Of a DNA stretch of 64,000 bases, positions 25,604 to 36,409 are shown one piece after another. Numbering within the stretch: the first letter of the stretch is position 1; each line of letters starts with the position of its first letter. The translations under genes were made by a program, and so were the position numbers. The DNA is from Actinomadura syzygii (GTDB lineage: Bacteria > Actinomycetota > Actinomycetes > Streptosporangiales > Streptosporangiaceae), in assembly GCF_008085905.1 (NCBI RefSeq), contig NZ_VSFF01000003.1:124001-188000 (forward strand), given 5' to 3'. The notes under the pieces were generated by a model that saw only the letters and a list, made by a program, of their open reading frames with translations, ran no database searches and was not told the DNA's origin.

Positions 25604-26899
25604 TCATGAGGTCTTGGCGTCCACCCAGGTGCCGCCGGTCTTGTCCAGCTTCTTGTAGGCGGTGAACGCGCCGGACTGGACCTGGACGGTGATGTACAGC
25701 GGGTCGGTCCGGTCGCCCTTCTGGTCGAAGGTGATCGGCCCGGTGATGCCCGGGAAGTCCTTGATCTTGTGGAGGGCGGCGATGAGGTCCTCGCCGTCCG
25801 TCGACCCGGCGTCGCCGACCGCCTTCGCGATGACCTTCACCGCGTCGTACTCGTACACCGAGAACGGCCCCGGGTCGGCGTTGTTCGCCGCCTTGTAGGC
25901 CGACACGAACCCGGCCGCGGCGGGCAGGTCCTTGGCCAGCGGGGCGGTGGTCGCGATGTAGCCGTCCGCCGCCGAGCCCGCCGTCTTCAGGACGGTCGAG
26001 TCGGTCGTCGCGTCCCCGCCCATCAGCGTGAACTTCAGCCCGAGCTGCTTGCGCTGCTTCATCAGCAGGCCCGCCTCGGCGAAGTATCCGGTGAAGTACA
26101 GGACGTCCGGCTTCGTCGAGGCCACCCTCGTCAGGACGGGGCTGTAGTCGGACTGGCCGGGCTGCAGCGCGTCCTCGTAGACGACCTGCCCGCCCGCCTG
26201 CTTGACCGAGTTCGCCGCCGCGTCCGCGAGGCCCTTGGCGTAGGTGGTGTTGTCGTGCAGGAGCGCGACGCGCTTGGCGCCGAGCGGGCCGGTCATGAAC
26301 TTCGCGGCGACGAGGCCCTGGTTGTCGTCGCGCCCGCAGGTGCGGAACACCTTGCCCTTGCCGGTGTCGGTGAGCGACGGGTTGGTGGAGGCGTCCATCA
26401 CGAACGGGACGCTCCGCCGCCCGTAGATCGGGATCGCGGGCACCGCCGCGCCGGAGCAGTAGCCGCCCGCGACCGCCACGACCTTGCTGTTCAGCAGCTT
26501 CTGCGCGGCCTGCGCGCCCTGCTGGGCGCTGCACTGGTCGTCGGCCTCCACGATGTCGATCTTGCGGCCCTTGACCCCGCCCGCCTTGTTGATCTCGGCG
26601 GCGGCGACCTTGGCGGCGGCGAGGATGTCCTGCCCCGCCGAGGCCGAGTCGCCGCTCAGCGGCGCGGGAACGCCGATCTTGATCGGCCCCGACCCGTCCG
26701 ACCCACCCGAGTCCCCGCACCCCGCGCCGAGCGGAACCAGCAGGAGACCGACCCCGACCGCCGCGACGCCGCGAAACCGACGTCCGCGCCGCCGGGGAGG
26801 GTGTCGGGGAACCGATCGGGCCTCCAGCCCGGCGGGCTGGGGGACGCCCCCTGGACCCTCGGGCCGGTGGCCCGAAGATCCTCGCTTCGCTGCGGTCAT
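25604..26899 (-). CDS. ABC transporter substrate-binding lipoprotein (Liv type)
   Basis: A 431-residue type I periplasmic-binding protein of the HAAT (leucine/isoleucine/valine) group: IKIGVPAPLSGDSASAG opens the mature protein and YEYDAVKVIAKAV lies near the end. The lipoprotein signal is RRGRRFRGVAAVG, a hydrophobic core and LGAGC with the Cys near residue 62. About 45 odd Pro/Gly/Arg-rich residues precede this signal; they are encoded by a set of hairpins at 26824-26873. ATG at 26899 has GGAGG five bases upstream and is the only usable start. It heads the importer operon. Being divergent from the hydroxyproline locus, it may bind hydroxyproline or proline; a branched-chain ligand is the alternative. 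Confidence 0.88.
   Translation of the reverse strand: MTAAKRGSSGHRPEGPGGVPQPAGLEARSVPRHPPRRRGRRFRGVAAVGVGLLLVPLGAGCGDSGGSDGSGPIKIGVPAPLSGDSASAGQDILAAAKVAAAEINKAGGVKGRKIDIVEADDQCSAQQGAQAAQKLLNSKVVAVAGGYCSGAAVPAIPIYGRRSVPFVMDASTNPSLTDTGKGKVFRTCGRDDNQGLVAAKFMTGPLGAKRVALLHDNTTYAKGLADAAANSVKQAGGQVVYEDALQPGQSDYSPVLTRVASTKPDVLYFTGYFAEAGLLMKQRKQLGLKFTLMGGDATTDSTVLKTAGSAADGYIATTAPLAKDLPAAAGFVSAYKAANNADPGPFSVYEYDAVKVIAKAVGDAGSTDGEDLIAALHKIKDFPGITGPITFDQKGDRTDPLYITVQVQSGAFTAYKKLDKTGGTWVDAKTS
26824..26873. repeat. Cluster of three short hairpins at the binding-protein 5' end
   Basis: CCAGCCCGGCGGGCTGG (26824-26840), GGGGGACGCCCCC (26839-26851) and GGGCCGGTGGCCC (26861-26873) are adjacent perfect hairpins. 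They lie inside the 5' coding sequence of the binding protein and encode its unusual N-terminal extension. The arrangement resembles an inserted repetitive extragenic palindrome element. Confidence 0.6.
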
Positions 26900-27055
26900 C
26901 GGGCCTCCGTCGCTCGCGGGCGGGATGGTGAAAGCGTGAAACGTCGGCGCACCTGCGTCGAGACGACCAAGCATGCGATCTCATGTAGTGATCGATAAGA
27001 ACCGCTTGCCCTTCCGCGCTGGACGGAGCGGGAGCGTCCTCGGGAGGATCGTCGG

Positions 27056-28033
27056 ATGCCCGAAGTGCTGCTGCTCTCCGCCGCCGACGTGCGCGCGGTG
27101 TTCGACCTGCCTTCGGCGATCGCCTCGCAGCGCGCCGCGTTCCGCGCGCTCGGCCGCCGGGAGGCGCGGCTCGCGCCGCGGCTCCTCCTGGACGGCCCGG
27201 ACGGCGACGTCGCGTTCTGCTACGTCTCCCGGATGCCCGGCACGGGCGCGGTGTCCAAGTTCGGCAGCGTGCACCCGGACAACGCGGCGCGCGGCCTGCC
27301 GACCGTGTCGGCGCTCGTGATCGTCCAGGACCCGGAGGACGGGCGGCCCGTCGCGATCATCGAGGGGGAGTCGGTGACGACGCTGCGCACGTCCGCGGCG
27401 AGCGCGGTCGCCGCCGACCACCTCGCGGCGCCGGACGCGTCCCGTCTCGCCGTGATCGGCTGCGGTCCGCAGGGACGCGCGCACGTCCGGGCGATGGCGG
27501 AGGTCAGGCCGGTCGAGCGGGTCGCGCTGGCCTGCCGCCACCCGGAGACCTGCGACATCGCCGCCGGGCTCGCGGACGAGCTGGGCCTGCCGGTAGTGGC
27601 GGCGCCGTCCGTCCGGGACGCCGTGGAGGGCGCGCAGATCGTGGTCACCGCGACGACGAGTGCGGAGCCGGTCGTCGGCGGAGCGTGGCTCGACTCCGGC
27701 TGCACCGTCCTGAGCGTCGGCTCGTTCGCCCCGGACCGGGTGGAGGTGGAGGACGACGTCCTCACCCGGGCCGCGTCGATCGTGGTGGACGACGTGCCGT
27801 CCGCGCTGGACCACGCCGGTCCGGTCGTGGCGGCGATCCGCGCGGGACGGCTCAGCCCAGAGCGGGTGCAACCCCTGGGCCCCATCGTCGCGGGCCTCGC
27901 CGACGGGCGCGAGTCGGCCGAGGACATCGTGTTCTACAACAGCGTCGGCGTCGGCGTGCAGGACACGGCGGCGGCGTCCGTCATCGTCGAGCGCGCCCGC
28001 GATCTCGGCGCGGGGCGGCACGCGGACCTCTGA
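27056..28033 (+). CDS. Ornithine cyclodeaminase / mu-crystallin family protein
   Basis: A 325-residue NAD(P)-binding protein of the OCD family. It has the conserved N-terminal SKFGSVHPDN and GRPVAIIEGESVTTLRTSAASA segments and a Rossmann motif AVIGCGPQGRAHVRAM. Family enzymes include ornithine cyclodeaminase and delta1-pyrroline-2-carboxylate reductase (LhpI). Next to hydroxyproline genes the reductase role, returning pyrroline-2-carboxylate to L-proline, is favoured. ATG at 27056 is preceded by GGGAGGA. It is divergent from the LIV importer (156-base gap) and 61 bases before the XRE-cupin regulator. Confidence 0.85.
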   Translation: MPEVLLLSAADVRAVFDLPSAIASQRAAFRALGRREARLAPRLLLDGPDGDVAFCYVSRMPGTGAVSKFGSVHPDNAARGLPTVSALVIVQDPEDGRPVAIIEGESVTTLRTSAASAVAADHLAAPDASRLAVIGCGPQGRAHVRAMAEVRPVERVALACRHPETCDIAAGLADELGLPVVAAPSVRDAVEGAQIVVTATTSAEPVVGGAWLDSGCTVLSVGSFAPDRVEVEDDVLTRAASIVVDDVPSALDHAGPVVAAIRAGRLSPERVQPLGPIVAGLADGRESAEDIVFYNSVGVGVQDTAAASVIVERARDLGAGRHADL

Positions 28034-28072
28034 CCGTCCCGCCGCCCGCTAGGATGGTTCGGTATACCGAAC
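28029..28072 (+). promoter_or_regulatory. Promoter and palindromic operator of the XRE-cupin gene
   Basis: GTTCGGTATACCGAAC (28057-28072) is a perfect 16-base palindrome. A TAGGAT (28050-28055) directly before it serves as -10, with TCTGAC (28029-28034) as a weak -35. The same palindrome, with two changed bases at its centre, recurs at 28751-28766 ahead of the catabolic operon. The likely ligand is the XRE-cupin regulator encoded 23 bases downstream, giving autoregulation. Confidence 0.75.
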
Positions 28073-28094
28073 GCTGGACGAGAGGGCGGGGACC

Positions 28095-28718
28095 GTGGGC
28101 GCGTCAGGGGAATCGGTGCGGGACGTGCTGGCCGGAAACCTGCGGCGGGCCCGGCTGGCGCGCGGCCTGTCGCTGTCCGAGCTGTCCCGCCGGTCGAAGA
28201 TCGGCAAGGCGACGCTGTCGCAGTTGGAGGCCGGGGCCGGGAACCCGACGATCGAGACGGTGTTCAGCCTGTCGCGGGCCCTCGAAGTGCCGATCTCCGA
28301 CCTGCTCGACCACCGCGAGCCGACCGGGCCGACCGTGGTCCGCGCGGCGGACGTCGAGGTGCTGCGCGGCGCGGGCGTCGACCTGCGCCCGCTGCGCGGC
28401 ATCGAGTCCGGCGGCGCGATCTTCGAGGTGTACGACCAGCAGGTCAGGGCCGGATGCCGGCAGGACTCGCTCGGCCACGTCGGGACGGAGCACACGATCG
28501 TCCAGGCCGGGCGCCTCGGCGTAACGGTCGACGGCACGGACGTCGAACTCGGTCCCGGCGACTACGTGGGCTTCGACGCCCGGCTGCCGCACGCCTACAC
28601 CGCCCCGGACGGCCCCGTCCGGTCGGTGCTGCTCCTGGAATACCGCTCCGACCAGCGCCTTCACGCCGCCTCCGACGCGCCGCCGCATCTGGTCCAGCCG
28701 GAGGACGAGGCGCGTTGA
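28095..28718 (+). CDS. XRE-family regulator with C-terminal cupin domain
   Basis: A 207-residue regulator. Residues 10-70 are a Cro/C1 HTH (LRRARLARGLSLSELSRRSKIGKATLSQLEAG). Residues about 85-190 form a cupin barrel with TIVQAGRLGVTVDGTDVELGPGDYVGFDARLPHAY, in which the final His belongs to the second cupin motif. Such proteins sense a small metabolite and repress nearby catabolic genes. The GTG start at 28095 has GGGCGGGGA upstream. Its gene lies between two copies of a 16-base palindrome, one in its own promoter and one in the promoter of the hydroxyproline operon, whose -35 TTGACA overlaps this gene's stop codon. It is therefore the likely local regulator. Confidence 0.9.
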   Translation: MGASGESVRDVLAGNLRRARLARGLSLSELSRRSKIGKATLSQLEAGAGNPTIETVFSLSRALEVPISDLLDHREPTGPTVVRAADVEVLRGAGVDLRPLRGIESGGAIFEVYDQQVRAGCRQDSLGHVGTEHTIVQAGRLGVTVDGTDVELGPGDYVGFDARLPHAYTAPDGPVRSVLLLEYRSDQRLHAASDAPPHLVQPEDEAR

Positions 28719-28766
28719 CAGGGGGCGGGCGGCGGTCCTAGTCTCAAAGCGTTCGGTTTAACGAAC
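28715..28766 (+). promoter_or_regulatory. Promoter and palindromic operator of the hydroxyproline operon
   Basis: A perfect -35 TTGACA (28715-28720) lies 15 bases before TAGTCT (28736-28741). The palindrome GTTCGGTTTAACGAAC (28751-28766; extended by C and G to 18 bases) covers the expected transcription start. Binding there would block transcription, consistent with repression. It matches the site at 28057-28072 outside two central bases. Confidence 0.75.
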
Positions 28767-28779
28767 GATCGGAGGGGCG

Positions 28780-29940
28780 ATGACGCGGGTCGTGGTGCTG
28801 GGCGCCGGGATCGTCGGCGCCGCCTGCGCCCGCGAGCTGACCGCCGCCGGATGCGCGGTGACCGTCGTCGAGCGGGCGCGTCCCGCCGCCGCGACCACGG
28901 CGCACGGCGAGGGCAACATCCTCGTTTCCGACAAGGAGCCCGGTCCCGAACTGGAGCTGGCGCGGCTGTCGCTCCGGCTCTGGCCGCGCCTCCTGGAAGC
29001 GCTTCCCGATCCCGAAGCGGTCGAATGGGAGGCCAAAGGCGGGATCGTCGTCGCGACCACGCCGGAGGGCGCCGCAGCCCTGCGCGCCTTCGCCGCGGGC
29101 CAGCGTGCCGCCGGGATCACCGCCGCCGAACTGGACGCCGCCGCCTTCGCCGACGCCGAGCCGCACGCGGTGAAGGACGTCGCCGCCGCCGTCCACTACC
29201 CCGAGGACGCGCAGGTCCAGCCCGCCGCCGCGGCCACCGCGCTGCTCGGCGCCGCCGTCCGGGCCGGGGCCGTGCTGCGCACCGGCTGCGAGGTGACCGG
29301 CGCCGTCACACGAAAGGGCCGGATCACCGGCGTGCGCACCACCGGCGGGACGGTCGGCGCCGACGCCGTCGTCAACGCCGCCGGGCCGTGGTCGGGCGAG
29401 GTCGCGGCGCGGCTCGGCGTCCGGCTGGACGTCCGGCCCCGGCGCGGCGAGGTGCTCGTCACGGCGCCGCTGCCGCCGACCGTCTTCCACAAGGTCTACG
29501 ACGCCGACTACGTGGGCGCGGTCGGCAGCGGCGAGGCGGGGCTCCAGGCGTCCGCCGTGGTCGAGTCGACCCGCGCCGGGACGGTCCTGATCGGCTCGAC
29601 GCGCCGCCGCGCCGGGTTCAACGACCGGATCCGCCCCGGCGTGCTGTCGGTGCTCGCGGCGAGGGCGCTGCGCCTGTTCCCGTCGCTGGCCGGGGTCCCG
29701 GTGATGCGCGCCTACGGCGGGTTCCGCCCGTACGTCGCCGACCACCTCCCCGTGATCGGCCCCGACCCGGAGCTGGCCGGCCTCTGGCACGCCACCGGCC
29801 ACGAGGGCGCCGGGATCGGGCTCTCCGCCGGGACCGCCGCCGTCCTGCGCGACCTGATGCTCGGCCGCGAACCGGAGATCGACGCCGCGCCGTTCCGCGT
29901 CGACCGGCCCGCCGTCCGCCCGGAGGGACGCGCCGCATGA
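28780..29940 (+). CDS. FAD-dependent oxidoreductase, probable D-hydroxyproline dehydrogenase catalytic subunit
   Basis: A 386-residue DAO-family flavoprotein. It begins VVVLGAGIVGAACARELTAAG, has the AHGEGNILVSDKEPG loop typical of the hydroxyproline/proline dehydrogenase group, and ends with GGFRPYVADHLPVIGPD and HATGHEGAGIGLSAGTA that close the FAD site. It would oxidize cis-4-hydroxy-D-proline to pyrroline-4-hydroxy-2-carboxylate, passing electrons to the next two gene products. It starts at ATG 28780 after GGAGGGG and its stop overlaps the 2Fe-2S gene (ATGA). It is first in a six-gene rightward operon with tight overlaps. Confidence 0.87.
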   Translation: MTRVVVLGAGIVGAACARELTAAGCAVTVVERARPAAATTAHGEGNILVSDKEPGPELELARLSLRLWPRLLEALPDPEAVEWEAKGGIVVATTPEGAAALRAFAAGQRAAGITAAELDAAAFADAEPHAVKDVAAAVHYPEDAQVQPAAAATALLGAAVRAGAVLRTGCEVTGAVTRKGRITGVRTTGGTVGADAVVNAAGPWSGEVAARLGVRLDVRPRRGEVLVTAPLPPTVFHKVYDADYVGAVGSGEAGLQASAVVESTRAGTVLIGSTRRRAGFNDRIRPGVLSVLAARALRLFPSLAGVPVMRAYGGFRPYVADHLPVIGPDPELAGLWHATGHEGAGIGLSAGTAAVLRDLMLGREPEIDAAPFRVDRPAVRPEGRAA

Positions 29941-30239
29941 GGCTCGTGGACGACGACCCGGCGGGACGGCGCGACGTCCCGCTGCGGATCACCGTGGACG
30001 GCGAGCCGGTCGCCGGGATCACGGGCCAGACCATCGCGGGCGTGCTGCTCGCGTCCGGCCACCGCGCTTGGCGGACGGGCCCGTCCGGCGCCCCGCGCGG
30101 CGTGTTCTGCGGCATCGGCGTGTGCTTCGACTGCCTGGTGACCGTGAACGGCGTCCGCGACGTCCGCGCCTGCGCCCGCCGCGCCCACGAGGGTGACACC
30201 GTGACGACCCAGTCCCGCGCGCAAGGAGACCTTCGATGA
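29937..30239 (+). CDS. Small 2Fe-2S subunit of the D-hydroxyproline dehydrogenase
   Basis: A 100-residue plant-type ferredoxin-like protein of the Fer2_4 kind. The cluster Cys residues are in VFCGIGVCFDCLVTVNG (C-X4-C-X2-C), with a fourth Cys in VRACARR. It has a beta-grasp opening (LRITVDGEPVAGITGQTIAG). It would bridge electrons between the FAD subunit and the FAD/BFD subunit. It overlaps both neighbours by four bases (ATGA), so the three are made together. Confidence 0.88.
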   Translation: MRLVDDDPAGRRDVPLRITVDGEPVAGITGQTIAGVLLASGHRAWRTGPSGAPRGVFCGIGVCFDCLVTVNGVRDVRACARRAHEGDTVTTQSRAQGDLR

Positions 30240-31666
30240 CGAGGCGTGTCGTGGTCGTCGGGGCGGGGCCCGCGGGGCTTGGGGCGGCGGCGGGGGCGTT
30301 GCGGGCCGGGGCGGCGGTGACGCTGCTCGACGCCGCCGAGAACCCGGGCGGCCAGTACCACCGGATGCTTCCCGGCGCCTTCGCCGCCGCCGACCCCGGA
30401 CGCCTCCACCACGGGTGGCGCGGCTTCGAGCGCCTCCGCGACCACGTGCTCGGGCACGCGCGGTGCGACTGGTGGCCGGAGAGCGCGGTCTGGGCCGTCG
30501 AGCGTCCCGACCGGGGCGTCCCGCACGTCCACGTGCTGCGCGGCGAGGCCGACGGAGCGGGGCGGGCGCGGCACGTGCTCGTGCCCGACGCGCTCGTCCT
30601 CGCGCCGGGCGCGCACGACCGCGTGCTGCCGTTCCCCGGCTGGGAACTCCCCGGAGTCCACACCGCCGGGGCGGCGCAGGCCCTCGTCAAGGGCGAGCGG
30701 CTCGTCATCGGCGACAGCGTGCTGATCGCCGGGACCGGGCCGTTCCTGCTCCCGGTCGCCGCGTCGCTGCTGGACGCGGGCGCCGCCGTCCACGGCGTGC
30801 TGGAGGCCAACACCGCGTCGACCGTGGCGCGGGGCTGGGGACGCCGCCCGTGGGAGCTTCCCGCCGAGTCCGGCAAGGCCGGTGAGCTGGCCGGATACCT
30901 CGGCCTGCTCGCCCGCCGCCGGGTCCCCTACCGGACGGGCCGCGCCGTCGTCGAGGCGCGCGGCGACGGCCGCGTCGAGGAGGCGGTTACGGCGCGGCTG
31001 CGTCCCGACTGGTCCGTCGTGCCCGGCACCGAGCGGACGATCGCCGTCGACGCCCTCTGCGTCACCCACGGCTTCAGCCCGCGCCTCGAACTCCCCGTCG
31101 CCGCCGGGTGCGCGCTCCGCGACGGCGCGTTCACCGAGGTGGACGCCGACCAGCGGACCAGCGTCCCCGGCGTCCACGCCGCCGGGGAGATCACCGGCAT
31201 CGCCGGGGCGCAGGCCGCCCGCACCGAGGGCCTCCTCGCCGGATGGATCGCCGGGGGAGGAGCCCCGGACGCCCCCGAGGCGGTCCGGACGCGCCGCAGC
31301 CGCGACCGGGCCCGCGCGTTCGCCGCGCGGCTCGCCGCCGCGCATCCGATCGGCGCGGCGTGGCCCGGCTGGCTCCGCCCGGAGACCGTCGTGTGCCGCT
31401 GCGAGGAGACGACGTACGGTGCGCTGCTGAGCGCGGGCGGCGACCCGTCCCGCAACTCGGCGCACGCGGTCAGGCTCGGCACCCGCGCGGGCCTCGGCCC
31501 CTGCCAGGGGCGCATCTGCGGCCCGACGGTCGCCGAGTTGCTGCCGGACGCGGGCGGGAACCCGCACCACCGCCCGGTCGCCCAGCCGATCCGGCTAGGC
31601 GAACTGGCCCAGCCACCGGTCGAGAACCCGATCGAGAACACCGACAGGAAAGAGAGCGCCCGATGA
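30236..31666 (+). CDS. NAD(P)/FAD oxidoreductase with C-terminal BFD-like cluster, dehydrogenase subunit
   Basis: A 476-residue flavoprotein. The FAD motif VVVVGAGPAGLGAAAGALRAG is at the N-terminus and a second Rossmann segment, LIAGTGPFLLPVAASLL, lies near residue 165. The C-terminal quarter has Cys residues in VVCRCEETTYG and LGPCQGRICGPTV, the C-X-C / C-X4-C arrangement of BFD-like 2Fe-2S domains found in HcnB/SoxA-type subunits. It completes the three-subunit dehydrogenase encoded by the overlapping upstream genes. Its stop overlaps the DHDPS-family gene (ATGA). Confidence 0.88.
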   Translation: MTRRVVVVGAGPAGLGAAAGALRAGAAVTLLDAAENPGGQYHRMLPGAFAAADPGRLHHGWRGFERLRDHVLGHARCDWWPESAVWAVERPDRGVPHVHVLRGEADGAGRARHVLVPDALVLAPGAHDRVLPFPGWELPGVHTAGAAQALVKGERLVIGDSVLIAGTGPFLLPVAASLLDAGAAVHGVLEANTASTVARGWGRRPWELPAESGKAGELAGYLGLLARRRVPYRTGRAVVEARGDGRVEEAVTARLRPDWSVVPGTERTIAVDALCVTHGFSPRLELPVAAGCALRDGAFTEVDADQRTSVPGVHAAGEITGIAGAQAARTEGLLAGWIAGGGAPDAPEAVRTRRSRDRARAFAARLAAAHPIGAAWPGWLRPETVVCRCEETTYGALLSAGGDPSRNSAHAVRLGTRAGLGPCQGRICGPTVAELLPDAGGNPHHRPVAQPIRLGELAQPPVENPIENTDRKESAR

Positions 31667-32592
31667 GCGACACGCAGCCCACCGGCCTCGGCGGCGTCAT
31701 CGTGGCCACGGCCCTGCCCTACCGCGCGGACGCGGCCGCGCCCGCCGGGCTCGCCGTCGACTACGACGCCTACGCCGAGCACTGCCGCTGGGTGGTCGGC
31801 AGCGGCTGCCGCGGCGTCGGCCCGAACGGCTCCCTCGGCGAGTACTCGTCGCTGACCGACGCGGAGCGCCGCCGCGTCGCCCGCACCGCCGTGGAGGCGG
31901 TCGGCGGGGACGGCGTGGTCGTCGCCGGGGTGCACGCCCCCGGCTCCCACCAGGCGCGGCACTGGGCCGAGATCGCCGCCGAGGACGGCGCGGACGGCGT
32001 CCTCTGCCTCCCCCCGACCATGTACCGGGCCAACCGGGCCGAGATCGTCGCGCACTTCGAGGCCGTCGCGTCCGTGGGTCTTCCGGTCATGGTCTACAAC
32101 AACCCGATCGACACCAAGGTCGACCTCACCCCCGGCCTGCTCGCGGAGATCGCGCGGATCGACGGGGTCGTGGCGGTCAAGGAGTTCTCCGGGGACGTCC
32201 GCCGCGTCCTGGAGATAGGGGAGAAGGCGCCGGGGCTGGAGGTGGTCGCGGGCGCGGACGACGTCGTCCTCGAATCGCTGCTGATGGGCGCGACCGGATG
32301 GTTCGCGGGCTTCCCCAACGTGTTCCCCGCCGAGTCGGCCCTGCTCTACGACCTTGCGACCGGCGGCAGGCTGGAGGAGGCCCGCGCCCTGTACGAGCCG
32401 CTCGTCGCGGCGTTCCGCTGGGACTCGCGCACCGAGTTCGTCCAGGCGATCAAGCTCGGGATGGACCTCGTGGGCCGGTACGGCGGGGCGTGCCGCCCGC
32501 CGCGCGGGCCGCTCACCGCCGAGCAGCGCGCCGCCGTCGCCGACGACATGGCCCGCGCCGTCGCGGCCCTCGACCGGCGGCGGGCCGCCTGA
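31663..32592 (+). CDS. DHDPS-family deaminase, probable pyrroline-4-hydroxy-2-carboxylate deaminase
   Basis: A 309-residue class I aldolase-fold (TIM barrel) protein. It has GPNGSLGEYSSLTDAE (the GTTGE region of the DHDPS family, modified), the Tyr in VMVYNNPID and the Schiff-base Lys in VAVKEFSGD. In hydroxyproline breakdown this family removes ammonia and water from the pyrroline to give 2-oxoglutarate semialdehyde. The ATG at 31663 overlaps the upstream stop, with AGGAAAGAGAG as ribosome binding site. Its stop shares one base with the next start (TGATG). Confidence 0.87.
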   Translation: MSDTQPTGLGGVIVATALPYRADAAAPAGLAVDYDAYAEHCRWVVGSGCRGVGPNGSLGEYSSLTDAERRRVARTAVEAVGGDGVVVAGVHAPGSHQARHWAEIAAEDGADGVLCLPPTMYRANRAEIVAHFEAVASVGLPVMVYNNPIDTKVDLTPGLLAEIARIDGVVAVKEFSGDVRRVLEIGEKAPGLEVVAGADDVVLESLLMGATGWFAGFPNVFPAESALLYDLATGGRLEEARALYEPLVAAFRWDSRTEFVQAIKLGMDLVGRYGGACRPPRGPLTAEQRAAVADDMARAVAALDRRRAA

Positions 32593-33593
32593 TGCGCTCG
32601 GTCCGCACGATCAGCGCCGTCGACTCCCACACCGAGGGCAACCCGGCCCGGATCGTCACCGGCGGCGTCGCGCCGATCCCCGGCGACACGATGGCCGCGA
32701 AGCGCCTGCACGCGATCGAGCACCTGGACGGCCTGCGCAGCTTCCTCATGGACGAGCCGCGCGGCCACGCCGCGATGAGCGGCGCGATCCTCCAGGAGCC
32801 CACCCGTCCGGACGCCGACTGGGGCGTCGTCTACATCGAGGCGTCCGGCTTCCTGCCGATGTGCGGGCACGGCACGATCGCGCTGGCGACCGTCCTGGTC
32901 GAGACGGGGATGGTCGAGGTCACCGAGCCGGAGACGGTCGTCCGGCTGGACGCGCCCGCCGGGCTCGTCGAGGCGAGGGTCGCGGTCCGCGACGGGCGCG
33001 CGGAGAGCGCCACGGTGCGCATGGTGCCGTCCTTCCTGCTCGAACGCGACGCCGTCGTGGACGTCCCCGGGCTCGGCGAGGTCCGCTACGACATGGCCTA
33101 CGGCGGCAACTTCTACGCGATCACCGAGCTGGACGCCCTCGGCCTGCCGTTCGACCGGTCCCGCAAGGACGACATCGTCCGGGCCGGGCTCGCGATCATG
33201 GCAGCGATCAACGAGCGGAACCCGCCGCGGCACCCCGAGGACCCGGGCGTCGGCGGGACCAAGCACGTCCAGTTCCTCGCGCCGGGCTCGGACGCGAAGC
33301 ACTCCCGCAACGCCATGGCGATCCACCCGGGCTGGTTCGACCGGTCGCCGTGCGGCACCGGCACCTGCGCGCGCATGGCGCAGCTGCACGCCCGCGGCGA
33401 CCTGCCCCTGGACACCCGGTTCGTGAACGAGTCGTTCATCGGGACCCGCTTCCACGGCAGGCTCGCCGGCACGACCGAGGTCGGCGGGCTCCCCGCCGTC
33501 GTCCCGGAGATCTCCGGCCGCGCCTGGATCACCGGCACCGCGAACTACCTCCTCGACCCCGCCGACCCGTTCCCCGAGGGCTTCACCTTCTGA
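32592..33593 (+). CDS. Proline racemase family, probable 4-hydroxyproline 2-epimerase
   Basis: A 333-residue protein. Both catalytic Cys residues of the racemase/epimerase group are present: MCGHGT near residue 90 and SPCGTGTCARMA near residue 250. Trans-3-hydroxyproline dehydratases of this family have Ser or Thr at the first place, so epimerase or racemase activity is favoured. It would convert trans-4-hydroxy-L-proline to cis-4-hydroxy-D-proline, the first step of the pathway. It is translationally coupled on both sides (TGATG overlaps). Its position late in the operon has no bearing on its early pathway role. Confidence 0.9.
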   Translation: MRSVRTISAVDSHTEGNPARIVTGGVAPIPGDTMAAKRLHAIEHLDGLRSFLMDEPRGHAAMSGAILQEPTRPDADWGVVYIEASGFLPMCGHGTIALATVLVETGMVEVTEPETVVRLDAPAGLVEARVAVRDGRAESATVRMVPSFLLERDAVVDVPGLGEVRYDMAYGGNFYAITELDALGLPFDRSRKDDIVRAGLAIMAAINERNPPRHPEDPGVGGTKHVQFLAPGSDAKHSRNAMAIHPGWFDRSPCGTGTCARMAQLHARGDLPLDTRFVNESFIGTRFHGRLAGTTEVGGLPAVVPEISGRAWITGTANYLLDPADPFPEGFTF

Positions 33594-35020
33594 TGACTCC
33601 CACTTCCATGACGGCCGTCGACTCGGCCGTGGACGCCGCCGTGTCGGCCGCGCCCGGCTGGGCCGCCGCCCCGCCCGAGACCCGCGCCGCCGCCCTGACA
33701 TCGGTCGCCGCCGCCCTGGAGGGCGCCAGGGCCGACCTCGTCGCCCTCGCGGACGAAGAGACGCGCCTCGGCGAGGCCCGGCTGAACGGCGAGCTGACGC
33801 GCACGACGTTCCAGCTCGCGATGTTCGCCGACGCGGTGCGCGCGGGCGCCTTCCACGACGCGCGCATCGACCGTCCCGACCCGGACCGGCCCAACGGCCC
33901 GCGCCCCGACCTGCGCCGCTGCCGGATGGCCGTCGGTCCCGTGCTCGTGTTCGCGGCGAGCAACTTCCCGTTCGCGTTCAGCGTCGCGGGCGGCGACACC
34001 GCGTCCGCGTGGGCGGCCGGCTGCCCGGTCGTGGTCAAGGCCCATCCCGGGCATCCGCGCCTGTCCCGCCGGACGGCCGAGGCGATCCGCGCCGCCGGGC
34101 TCCCGGACGGGGTGTTCGGCCTCGTCGAGGACGCGGGCGAGGGCGAGGGCGAGGACGCGGGCGTCGCGGCCCTGCGGCATCCCGGCGTCGCCGCCGCCGC
34201 GTTCACCGGCTCGCAGCGCGGCGGGCTGGCGCTCGCGAAGATCGCCGCCGAACGTCCCGTGCCGATCCCGTTCTTCGCGGAGATGGGCAGCGTCAACCCG
34301 TCCGTGGTGACGCCCCGCGCCGCGCAGACGCGCGGTGACGAGATCGTCCAGGGTTACGCGGCGTCGCTCACCCTGGGCGCGGGACAGTTCTGCACCAACC
34401 CCGGCCTGTTGTTCGCGCCCGCCGGGCTGGTGGACCGGATCGCGCGGCGCGTGCGAGACGTCCCTGACGCGCCGATGCTGAACGACCGCATCGGCTCCGC
34501 GTTCGTGGCCGGGGCGGACGCGCTGGCGGCCCGCCCCGGCGTCCGGCGGCTGGTCTGGCCGGACGACCCGTCGTCCACCGCGCCGCGCCTCCTCGCCACC
34601 GACCTGGACGCCTTCGACGCCGCTGCCGCCGAGGAGTGCTTCGGCCCGCTCGGGCTGGTCGTCGCCTACGAGCGGCTGTCCGACCTGCCCGGCGTCCTCG
34701 CCGCGCTGCCGGGCCAGCTCACCGCGTCGCTGCACGCCGAACCTGACGAGGCCGCCGACCTCGCCGCGTCGGCGGCCGTGCTCGCGGGACGCGCCGGACG
34801 TGTCCTGTGGAACCAGTGGCCGACCGGCGTCTCCGTCACCAACGCGATGCAGCACGGCGGCCCGTACCCGGCGACGACCGCGCCGTCCACCACCTCGGTC
34901 GGAACGGCCGCGATCGAGCGGTTCCTGCGTCCCGTCGCCTTCCAGGGCTGGCCGCAGGAACTCCTGCCGCCCCCGCTCCGCGACGACAACCCGTGGAACG
35001 TCCCGCAGGACGTCCGATAG
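33593..35020 (+). CDS. Aldehyde dehydrogenase (NADP+), probable 2-oxoglutarate semialdehyde dehydrogenase
   Basis: A 475-residue ALDH of the group acting on 2-oxoglutarate semialdehyde. The signature differs from common ALDHs: AASNFPFAFSVAGGDTASA for cofactor binding, Glu in PFFAEMGSVNP and Cys in LGAGQFCTNPG. It would oxidize the semialdehyde to 2-oxoglutarate, the exit of hydroxyproline breakdown to the TCA cycle. It starts in a TGATG overlap with the epimerase gene. A Glu/Gly/Asp microrepeat (EGEGED) occurs in a surface loop. It is last in the operon and converges on the next ALDH with nine bases between stops. Confidence 0.88.
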   Translation: MTPTSMTAVDSAVDAAVSAAPGWAAAPPETRAAALTSVAAALEGARADLVALADEETRLGEARLNGELTRTTFQLAMFADAVRAGAFHDARIDRPDPDRPNGPRPDLRRCRMAVGPVLVFAASNFPFAFSVAGGDTASAWAAGCPVVVKAHPGHPRLSRRTAEAIRAAGLPDGVFGLVEDAGEGEGEDAGVAALRHPGVAAAAFTGSQRGGLALAKIAAERPVPIPFFAEMGSVNPSVVTPRAAQTRGDEIVQGYAASLTLGAGQFCTNPGLLFAPAGLVDRIARRVRDVPDAPMLNDRIGSAFVAGADALAARPGVRRLVWPDDPSSTAPRLLATDLDAFDAAAAEECFGPLGLVVAYERLSDLPGVLAALPGQLTASLHAEPDEAADLAASAAVLAGRAGRVLWNQWPTGVSVTNAMQHGGPYPATTAPSTTSVGTAAIERFLRPVAFQGWPQELLPPPLRDDNPWNVPQDVR

Positions 35021-35029
35021 GAGAAAGAG

Positions 35030-36409
35030 TCAGCCGACCCAGACCGTCTTGGCGTTGCAGAAGGCGTGCATGCCCTCCGCGGACAGTTCGCGCCCGTAGC
35101 CGGAGCGCTTCGTCCCACCGAACGGCAGCTCCGGATAGGACGTCGTCATCCCGTTGATGAACACCTGCCCGGCGTCGAGTTCCCGGACGAACCGCTCCCG
35201 CTCGTCGTCGTCGCGCGTCCAGGCGTTGGAGCCGAGCCCGAAGCCCGTCGCGTTCGCGACCTCGACCGCCTCCGACACCCCGCGCACGCGGAACAGCGAC
35301 GCGACCGGCGCGAACACCTCCTCGTGGTACATCCGCATCTCCGGCGTCACCCCGGACACGACGGTCGGCGGGTAGAACCAGCCGGGGCCGTCCGGGCGCT
35401 CGCCGCCGCACAGCACCTCCGCGCCCTTGGAGACCGCGTCCGCGACCAGTTCCTCGGTCTCGGCGCGGGCCCGCTCGCTGACGAGGGGGCCGATGTCGGT
35501 GGCGTCGTCCAGCGGGTCGCCGACCTTCTTCGCGCGCATGTCCGCGACGAACCGCCGCTCGAACTCGTCCGCGCAGCCGATGTCCACGATGAACCGCTTC
35601 GCGGAGATGCAGCTCTGCCCGTTGTTGAGGCACCGGGACTCCGCCGCCGTCCTCGCCGCGGCCTCGATGTCGGCGGACGGCATCACCACGAACGGGTCGC
35701 TGCCGCCGAGTTCCAGCACCGTCGTCTTGACCTCGCTCCCGGCGATCGACGCGACGGACCGCCCGGCGGGCTCGCTGCCGGTGAGCGTCGCCGCCTTCAC
35801 CCGCGGGTCCCGCAGCACCTGCTCGACCTGCGACGACCCGATCAGCAGCGTTTGGAAGGCGCCCTCGGGGAACCCGGCGCGGTGGAACAGGTCCTCCAGG
35901 AACAGCGCCGTCTGCGGGACGTTCGACGCGTGCTTCAGCAGCCCGACGTTCCCCGCCATCAGCCCCGGCGCGGCGAACCTGACCACCTGCCAGAGCGGGA
36001 AGTTCCACGGCATGACCGCGAGGACCGGCCCGAGCGGCTCGTAGCGGACGTAGGCGTCCCGCGCGTCCACGTCGCGGGGGTCGGCGGGACGCCGGTCGGC
36101 GAGGAACTCCGCCGCGTGCTCCGCGTAGAACCGGCACGCCTTCGCGCACTTGCGCGCCTCCGACCCGGCGGCCTTCAGCGTCTTGCCCATCTCGGTGGTC
36201 ATGATCACGGCGATCTGCTCGGCCTCCCGGTCGAGGATGTCCGCCGCCGCGTTCATCCATTCCGCGCGCCGGTCGAGCGCGGTCGTCCGGTAGGAGGCGA
36301 ACGTCTGCGCGGCCCGGGCGATGCGCCGGTCGACCTCCTCGCCGGTCAGCGCGTCGAAGGTCTTCTCCACCTCGCCCGTCGCGGGGTTGGTCGTCGCGAT
36401 CGTCGTCAT
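35030..36409 (-). CDS. NAD(P)-dependent succinate-semialdehyde-type dehydrogenase
   Basis: A 459-residue GabD/YneI-like ALDH. It starts ATTNPATGEVEKTFDALT, has PLGPVLAVMPWNFPLWQ, Glu in LELGGSDPFVV and Cys in NNGQSCISAKR, and ends with GGTKRSGYGRELS. It oxidizes succinate semialdehyde or a related aldehyde. It lies opposite the hydroxyproline operon, so it could act on the same 2-oxoglutarate semialdehyde or serve GABA breakdown. No aminotransferase is adjacent. The ATG at 36409 was used. Confidence 0.88.
   Translation of the reverse strand: MTTIATTNPATGEVEKTFDALTGEEVDRRIARAAQTFASYRTTALDRRAEWMNAAADILDREAEQIAVIMTTEMGKTLKAAGSEARKCAKACRFYAEHAAEFLADRRPADPRDVDARDAYVRYEPLGPVLAVMPWNFPLWQVVRFAAPGLMAGNVGLLKHASNVPQTALFLEDLFHRAGFPEGAFQTLLIGSSQVEQVLRDPRVKAATLTGSEPAGRSVASIAGSEVKTTVLELGGSDPFVVMPSADIEAAARTAAESRCLNNGQSCISAKRFIVDIGCADEFERRFVADMRAKKVGDPLDDATDIGPLVSERARAETEELVADAVSKGAEVLCGGERPDGPGWFYPPTVVSGVTPEMRMYHEEVFAPVASLFRVRGVSEAVEVANATGFGLGSNAWTRDDDERERFVRELDAGQVFINGMTTSYPELPFGGTKRSGYGRELSAEGMHAFCNAKTVWVG

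Follow-up and report, generated by a model that had tools for sequence, protein, structure and literature searches.

A probable hydroxyproline catabolic cassette of Actinomadura syzygii with a candidate XRE-cupin repressor and its probable palindromic operator

Analysis of a 64-kb stretch of contig C21 in the 9.7 Mb draft genome of Actinomadura syzygii (hereafter the window) revealed hydroxyproline genes spanning positions 28780-35020, all on the plus strand and preceded by a gene coding for an XRE-cupin regulator. With a probability of about 0.83, the locus is read as a self-contained catabolic cassette in which the XRE-cupin protein represses both the catabolic operon and its own gene until a metabolite releases it. 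The content and order of the genes, the catalytic residues, and the palindromes with their conservation and co-occurrence with the cassette are observed directly, and we infer the activities, binding, repression, and effector from sequence. Without substrate, a regulator dimer would occupy the 16-bp palindrome where operon transcription is expected to begin, as well as the one in front of the regulator gene, and would thereby shut both promoters, and binding of a pathway metabolite by the cupin domain would release it. The regulator's probable operator is new, and the switch appears to be different in kind from that of Streptomyces; the palindromes were absent from the original prediction, which had described a complete hydroxyproline locus from the letters of the sequence. 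The genes named there were found in place and their families were confirmed by profile matches, giving the following features.

28050..28055, plus strand: putative -10 element TAGGAT of the regulator gene, tentatively placed by eye
28057..28072, no strand: palindromic putative operator O1, GTTCGGTATACCGAAC, before the regulator gene (pattern match and relatives)
28095..28718, plus strand: XRE-cupin regulator, 207 aa, proposed local repressor (HTH_3 2.9e-14, Cupin_2 2.8e-9)
28715..28720, plus strand: putative -35 element TTGACA of the catabolic operon (arrangement conserved in relatives)
28739..28744, plus strand: putative -10 element TAGTCT of the catabolic operon, 18 bp from the -35 element (arrangement conserved in relatives)
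28751..28766, no strand: palindromic putative operator O2, GTTCGGTTTAACGAAC, at the predicted operon transcription start (pattern, relatives)
28780..29940, plus strand: D-hydroxyproline dehydrogenase, DAO-type FAD subunit, beta-like (PF01266 6e-71; SCO6289 family and place)
29937..30239, plus strand: D-hydroxyproline dehydrogenase, [2Fe-2S] subunit, gamma-like (Fer2_4, PF13510 1.7e-24; 4-base overlap)
30236..31666, plus strand: D-hydroxyproline dehydrogenase, FAD/NAD and BFD [2Fe-2S] subunit, alpha-like (PF07992 (Pyr_redox_2), PF04324; 4-base overlap)
31663..32592, plus strand: pyrroline-4-hydroxy-2-carboxylate deaminase, DHDPS family, HypD-like (PF00701 1.1e-45; order as SCO6292)
32592..33593, plus strand: 4-hydroxyproline 2-epimerase with Cys91/Cys254, Ser63, His225, and an unusual Ile244 (Pro_racemase PF05544 3.9e-127)
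33593..35020, plus strand: 2-oxoglutarate semialdehyde dehydrogenase, KGSADH-like, Aldedh (3v4c/1eyy relatives; substrate assigned from place)

The regulator consists of an N-terminal XRE helix-turn-helix and a C-terminal cupin domain, with 1y9q as its best solved relative (residues 10-171 aligned), and its probable operator has the consensus GTTCGnTWWAnCGAAC at the predicted transcription start. A pattern written from O1 and O2 themselves gave four strand-matches in the window against 0.37 expected, a count reached in none of 100 shuffles. The pattern GTTCGNTWWANCGAAC, which was shaped on the window and widened after inspection of relatives, some of them among the genomes counted, was present in all 36 of the 65 genus genomes that carried a close epimerase (at least 80% identity, full length) and in 4 of the 29 others, while a reversed control pattern had no match in any of the 65. 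Three of those four, G085, G216, and G242, share GTTCGGTTAACCGAAC; in the fourth, G246, a contig end truncates the cassette. Palindrome and epimerase lay on different contigs in G207, G210, and G217, and the palindrome of G233 flanks an XRE homologue.

Named relatives were the best 80 of at least 477 confirmed, a selection that favours close relatives; these loci overlap with the genus genomes (e.g., L032/G241), many are cut by contig ends, and unique sequences are given where counted. A slightly looser pattern was found upstream of the DAO gene in 71 of 72 loci with both XRE and DAO genes compared to 2 of 30 loci without XRE, overlapping genomes included. One of these two was L078, with less than 700 bp of contig before the DAO gene. 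Across the 80 named loci and the window, the looser pattern occurred 71 times in 1.56 Mb compared to 0.34 predicted from base composition; the perfect conservation of the arms is partly by construction, as the search pattern fixes them. The arms read GTTCA in all eight unique promoters whose regulator is less than 60% identical to that of the window and GTTCG in all 53 others, as would be expected if regulator and site change together, although the eight also come from partly related organisms. The only other site in the genome with one mismatch precedes an XRE-cupin gene that is a paralogue of the regulator gene (37% identical). This paralogue (L182:4570-5980) is divergent from a racemase-like gene of the aspartate/glutamate type, with the one-mismatch palindrome between them. 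In L057, the regulator adjoins the deaminase gene and the palindrome precedes the deaminase gene, with no DAO gene found.

The sequence before the operon suggests how the palindrome would act. In the window, TTGACA is followed after 18 bp by TAGTCT and after a further 6 bp by the palindrome, such that the palindrome would cover the transcription start. The same arrangement (TTGAC, 18-20 bp, TAnnnT, 6-7 bp, palindrome) was identified in 53 of 61 unique promoters with the strict pattern, and the -35/-10 pair with palindrome in 55 of 62 by a loose pattern, compared to a fraction of 0.0003 of random 50-bp stretches from the same loci that matched a looser form at that spacing. By its position beside the regulator's own gene and in the predicted core promoter of the target, the palindrome resembles the site of a local repressor. 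In Pseudomonas aeruginosa, XRE-cupin proteins are local inhibitors acting on core promoters next to their own gene, with palindromic motifs where these were determined, and form functional units with the genes they regulate (PMC7901475). PsdR, PauR, and ErfA share domain architecture, local targets, and a core-promoter palindrome with the regulator of the window but serve other pathways, with binding sequences that differ among themselves (PMC7901475). As the anatomy is the same as in these P. aeruginosa proteins, promoter occlusion by a dimer and relief by a metabolite is the best reading, and local repression by this means is likely. Activation of the operon by the XRE-cupin protein, or action in both directions, is improbable: the position of the site relative to the transcription start is itself predicted from sequence, which leaves some room for it, but a protein bound 6-7 bp after the -10 element, as in the promoters counted above, should block polymerase, and those P. 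aeruginosa relatives whose regulons have been determined are inhibitors of transcription (PMC7901475).

Several observations speak against this assignment of the operator, beginning with the origin of both search patterns as described above. Three genus genomes without the cassette (G085, G216, and G242) have one palindrome match each, that of G085 near a gene that is MarR-like by eye. L060 has the palindrome before its DAO gene with no regulator within approximately 6 kb of upstream sequence, and L064 does not match the strict pattern. In addition, conservation is lower for the palindrome before the regulator gene, which a loose pattern matched in 48 of 63 unique promoters, and the automatic test for a -35/-10 pair before it identified none in any of these 63.

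The catabolic genes encode, by family, an epimerase, a D-hydroxyproline dehydrogenase, a pyrroline-4-hydroxy-2-carboxylate deaminase, and a KGSADH. Conversion of trans-4-hydroxy-L-proline to 2-oxoglutarate is the best reading of this set, with activities assigned from families and gene order, and gene content likewise supports the earlier claim that the genes would suffice for this route under an XRE-cupin regulator of their own. The epimerase would produce cis-4-hydroxy-D-proline from trans-4-hydroxy-L-proline and the three-subunit flavo-iron-sulfur dehydrogenase would convert it to pyrroline-4-hydroxy-2-carboxylate, which the DHDPS-family enzyme would deaminate and dehydrate to 2-oxoglutarate semialdehyde for the aldehyde dehydrogenase to turn into 2-oxoglutarate. 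The aldehyde dehydrogenase had 3v4c (1.2e-103) and 1eyy (1.6e-102) as best solved relatives over nearly its full length, a group that probably corresponds to a KGSADH type, although a literature search on KGSADH typing yielded nothing of use. An epimerase and a D-amino acid dehydrogenase followed by a deaminase and a semialdehyde dehydrogenase constitute the hydroxyproline route (PMC6608401). The original prediction had drawn the locus as one run of overlapping genes; this is correct from the DAO gene through the aldehyde dehydrogenase gene, with successive overlaps of 4, 4, 4, 1, and 1 bases, but the regulator gene, which ends 61 bp before the DAO gene, and the OCD-family gene stand outside it. 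The DAO-Fer2-Pyr_redox-DHDPS-epimerase order was present on one strand in 69 of the 80 named relatives, with contig ends interrupting several of the remaining 11 loci, and is conserved beyond chance.

Neither the pathway nor its completeness is new, given the Streptomyces precedents and the conserved order in relatives. The S. coelicolor genes SCO6289-6293 are five catabolic genes in the same order as in the window, with SCO6289-6291 coding for the DAO, [2Fe-2S], and Pyr_redox/BFD dehydrogenase subunits, and an epimerase deletion mutant no longer grows on L-hydroxyproline (PMC6608401). S. lividans can use trans-4-hydroxyproline for growth and induces the predicted genes, and the eLife 2014 survey of proline racemases described, for Bacillus cereus and S. 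lividans together, 4HypE genes beside oxidase, deaminase, and KGSADH genes, as in the window (PMC4113996). Of the 71 named relatives whose locus extends at least 3.5 kb downstream, 27 also had a KGSADH-like gene (>45% identity) in it, comprising 13 of 36 XRE loci, 9 of 23 GntR loci, and 5 of 12 with neither regulator. The view that such completeness is notable for actinobacteria is thus not supported, in light of the five S. coelicolor genes, growth of S. lividans, and these relatives.

The epimerase carries both catalytic cysteines, as first proposed, in the motifs MCGH (Cys91) and DRSPCGTG (Cys254), and they were kept in all 149 aligned orthologues of at least 65% identity, a set that includes copies of one genome under two identifiers. 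HypE enzymes are recognized by Ser or Val at site 1, in place of the Phe of proline racemases, and by His at site 4 (PMC4364671). Alignment to one annotated plasmid HypE (L187) placed Ser63 at site 1 and His225 at site 4; in a direct alignment to TlProR, His225 was one column off Leu221, so the assignment of site 4 rests on the HypE alignment. The Cys pair together with the HypE-type Ser and His was present in 149 of 149 orthologues, and the full Ser-Cys-His-Ile-Cys set in 146, with Val replacing Ile in three. The name is weakened at site 5, where Ile244 is neither the Cys nor the Tyr of the HypE enzymes compared in PMC4364671, and by scores under the cut-off in each of the six NCBIfam models matched. 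Ile244 differs from the Phe of proline racemases at site 5 as well (PMC4364671), and is read as within-group variation, with HypE named by context and the claim weaker for it. The nearest named relatives of the epimerase are from Actinomadura.

An operon for L-proline, in which D-proline formed by racemization would be oxidized to pyrroline-2-carboxylate and the OCD protein would reduce this back, is highly improbable. The epimerase shares its family with proline racemases and its closest solved relatives bear that name, and the OCD protein has the pyrroline-2-carboxylate reductase 6t3e, together with alanine dehydrogenases, as nearest solved relatives. Such a route would leave the deaminase and KGSADH-like genes without a role, however, and both the HypE-type residues at sites 1 and 4 and the unlinking of the OCD gene from the cassette in sister genomes speak against it. 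A second Cys-Cys proline-racemase paralogue, 37-40% identical and near OCD and GntR genes, was observed in L079, L083, L084, L095, L100, L107, and L108; with Tyr/Gly/Phe at the specificity sites, it is possibly a proline racemase-like enzyme accompanied by a pyrroline-2-carboxylate reductase.

The regulators of the operon differ among relatives. Using cut-offs of >50% identity for the XRE homologue and >100 bits to the GntR protein encoded beside the cassette of G131, 41 of the 80 named relatives had an XRE homologue, 23 a GntR gene, 16 neither, and none both, and the loci with flanks of at least 7 kb on the upstream and 4 kb on the downstream side divided into 35, 22, 5, and 0, respectively. 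Next to the XRE gene of L056, a weak GntR hit of 74 bits was noted. The GntR gene directly follows the epimerase gene in L098, L101, L104, and L105, where by its number SCO6294 would also sit, and the GntR genes of relatives appear to resemble HypR, the comparison being made via the G131 GntR. In G131, G208, G214, and G246, the XRE cassette adjoins a GntR gene. On balance, we favour a model in which the same hydroxyproline operon is under at least two interchangeable and unrelated switches in actinobacteria, a HypR-like GntR protein and an XRE-cupin repressor with its co-varying operator, and in which the XRE cassette has been lost or relocated whole within one genus, now lying beside GntR in four Actinomadura-group genomes. 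The 64-kb window contained no homologue of the G131 GntR at E 1e-8. It also contained no HypR-type site with fewer than two mismatches, a weak test as the consensus preceded the DAO gene in just two of 21 GntR loci and in none of 40 XRE loci. HypR-type sites numbered 33 in 469 kb of GntR loci compared to 8 in 805 kb of XRE loci, and as a second control they were set aside as nearly uninformative.

The characterized systems differ from the window chiefly in control. S. coelicolor employs the GntR protein HypR with the site CTNTGC(A/C)ATGTCAC compared to an XRE-cupin protein and GTTCGnTWWAnCGAAC in the window, and its KGSADH gene lies away from the operon whereas that of the window is inside it (PMC6608401). 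The P. aeruginosa lhp cluster has the same pathway and three-subunit dehydrogenase but the AraC-type LhpR, and the Sinorhizobium meliloti hyp cluster has the same pathway but a GntR HypR and the unrelated dehydrogenase HypO (both as described in PMC6608401). The word hydroxyproline was absent from the main text of PMC7901475, and that of PMC12565409, on XRE palindromes, contained neither hydroxyproline nor GTTCG, although its supplementary motif lists might hold the motif. Within the open-access literature, no paper was found that joins hydroxyproline with an XRE-cupin regulator or that treats hydroxyproline, proline racemase, and Actinomadura together. For actinobacteria whose hydroxyproline operon has no HypR-like gene next to it, the locus offers an operator and a regulator that can be put to the test. 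It is also a natural example of a conserved operon under different regulators, and its compact regulator is a candidate for sensing hydroxyproline or a metabolite further down the pathway.

The cassette is delimited by two flanking genes.

27056..28033, plus strand: OCD-family reductase, flanking gene (PF02423), probably outside the hydroxyproline pathway
28034..35029, no strand: whole cassette, 6,996 bp separating the OCD stop codon from the SSADH stop codon (seven empty sites and one scar)
35030..36409, minus strand: NADP-dependent succinate-semialdehyde dehydrogenase (SSADH), flanking gene (NF006915 796 bits, cut-off 730) and partner of the OCD gene at empty sites

The 61 bp between the end of the OCD gene and the regulator gene hold the palindrome and the putative promoter of the latter. 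In seven genomes (L135-L141), the OCD gene is followed by the convergent SSADH gene with stop codons 1-7 bp apart and no hydroxyproline genes between them, where the window holds 6,996 bp from the regulator through the aldehyde dehydrogenase. G235 has a scar at the junction consisting of the last 48 epimerase residues and an aldehyde dehydrogenase remnant, with a possible half palindrome seen by eye. The OCD-SSADH junction is empty in G131, G208, and G214 with the cassette elsewhere; G246 has the first cassette genes elsewhere at a contig end, and part of the cassette of G207 is on another contig. Neither epimerase nor palindrome was found in G223 and G200.

Inheritance with loss and relocation fits the history of the cassette best. 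Trees were built from 46 supplied loci, with rows lacking more than one gene dropped (G235 with its scar and two empty sites, G200 and G207, among them), such that 18 genomes entered the flank-gene tree and 31 the cassette-gene tree. The two trees agree where they overlap, with support of 0.88-1.0 in the ten groups checked. The window's group {G000, G202, G239, G241} had support of 0.999 and 1.0 in the flank and cassette trees, and this group and the empty-site group were sisters with support of 0.883 and 0.972. Separate insertions of the cassette at the junction in several lineages, instead of an ancestral cassette later lost or moved, are suggested by the clean empty sites, with their stop codons so close together; the agreement of the trees and the epimerase and dehydrogenase remnants kept in G235 make this account unlikely.

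The OCD gene is probably a separate flanking unit outside the hydroxyproline pathway. The original prediction had it possibly adding pyrroline-2-carboxylate reduction, which is not supported, given the separate occurrence of OCD gene and cassette and the lack of a known dehydratase source in the draft genome; membership of the pathway was rejected on these grounds. Among the 65 genus genomes, an OCD orthologue (at least 64% identity) was identified in 27 and a close epimerase in 36, with both in 22, OCD alone in 5, the epimerase alone in 14, and neither in 24; two of the five OCD-only genomes are G246, with a cassette start at its contig end, and G235, with the scar. OCD-type pyrroline-2-carboxylate reductases accompany trans-3-hydroxyproline dehydratases (PMC4113996), for which this genome has no candidate. 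The draft genome (97% complete) has a single Pro_racemase-family gene, which is Cys-Cys and thus not a Cys-Thr 3-hydroxyproline dehydratase, and AcnX was not found in it, leaving no known dehydratase source of pyrroline-2-carboxylate. A 3-hydroxyproline dehydratase that would feed the OCD protein as Delta1-pyrroline-2-carboxylate reductase of the route was accordingly not found in this genome.

A functional role of the neighbouring LIV-type ATP-binding cassette (ABC) importer, with its SBP gene at 25604-26974, and the OCD protein in uptake and recycling of side products is doubtful. In other actinobacteria, genes of LIV-type ABC systems are found repeatedly in the vicinity of hyp operons, the LivF gene of L184 is preceded at a distance of 3.9 kb by an exact HypR-type site (at 1867), and the co-occurrence of OCD and epimerase in the genus also favours such a role. 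The ABC and OCD genes persist, however, at the empty site of G223, a genome with neither epimerase nor palindrome found, and the OCD gene is absent in G204 and G222, where the cassette is flanked by the ABC importer and SSADH; in addition, the ABC-OCD interval contains no palindrome at up to three mismatches. The OCD gene as a separate flanking unit remains the preferred reading, and is a warning that a neighbouring OCD gene is not assignable to the pathway by proximity.

The SSADH at 35030-36409 was considered as the pathway's own dehydrogenase and rejected, as it remains at the empty sites. The cassette of L046 (Actinomadura madurae), which may be compared here, is without the aldehyde dehydrogenase gene, with the convergent SSADH directly after the epimerase and no KGSADH gene found in the locus. 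A tRNA of unknown type called by ARAGORN at 33913-33997, inside the aldehyde dehydrogenase gene, is almost certainly a false call.

The compact, portable gene set probably lets an Actinomadura-type soil bacterium use hydroxyproline derived from collagen. One match to the M9 collagenase family was identified in the same genome (L189, C24:433139-434005), a plausible source of hydroxyproline; contig C24 had no palindrome match at up to two mismatches, and the collagenase is thus not evidently part of the regulon. In many relatives, an APC-type amino acid permease gene (L033:11115-12581; Pfam, L033 copy only) lies between the epimerase and aldehyde dehydrogenase genes, with N-termini similar to that of L033 in L035, L037, L039, L045, L051, and L064. 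It is not at the cassette of the window; the best homologue in the window's own genome is 45% identical and located elsewhere, and in the relatives it is perhaps used for hydroxyproline uptake.

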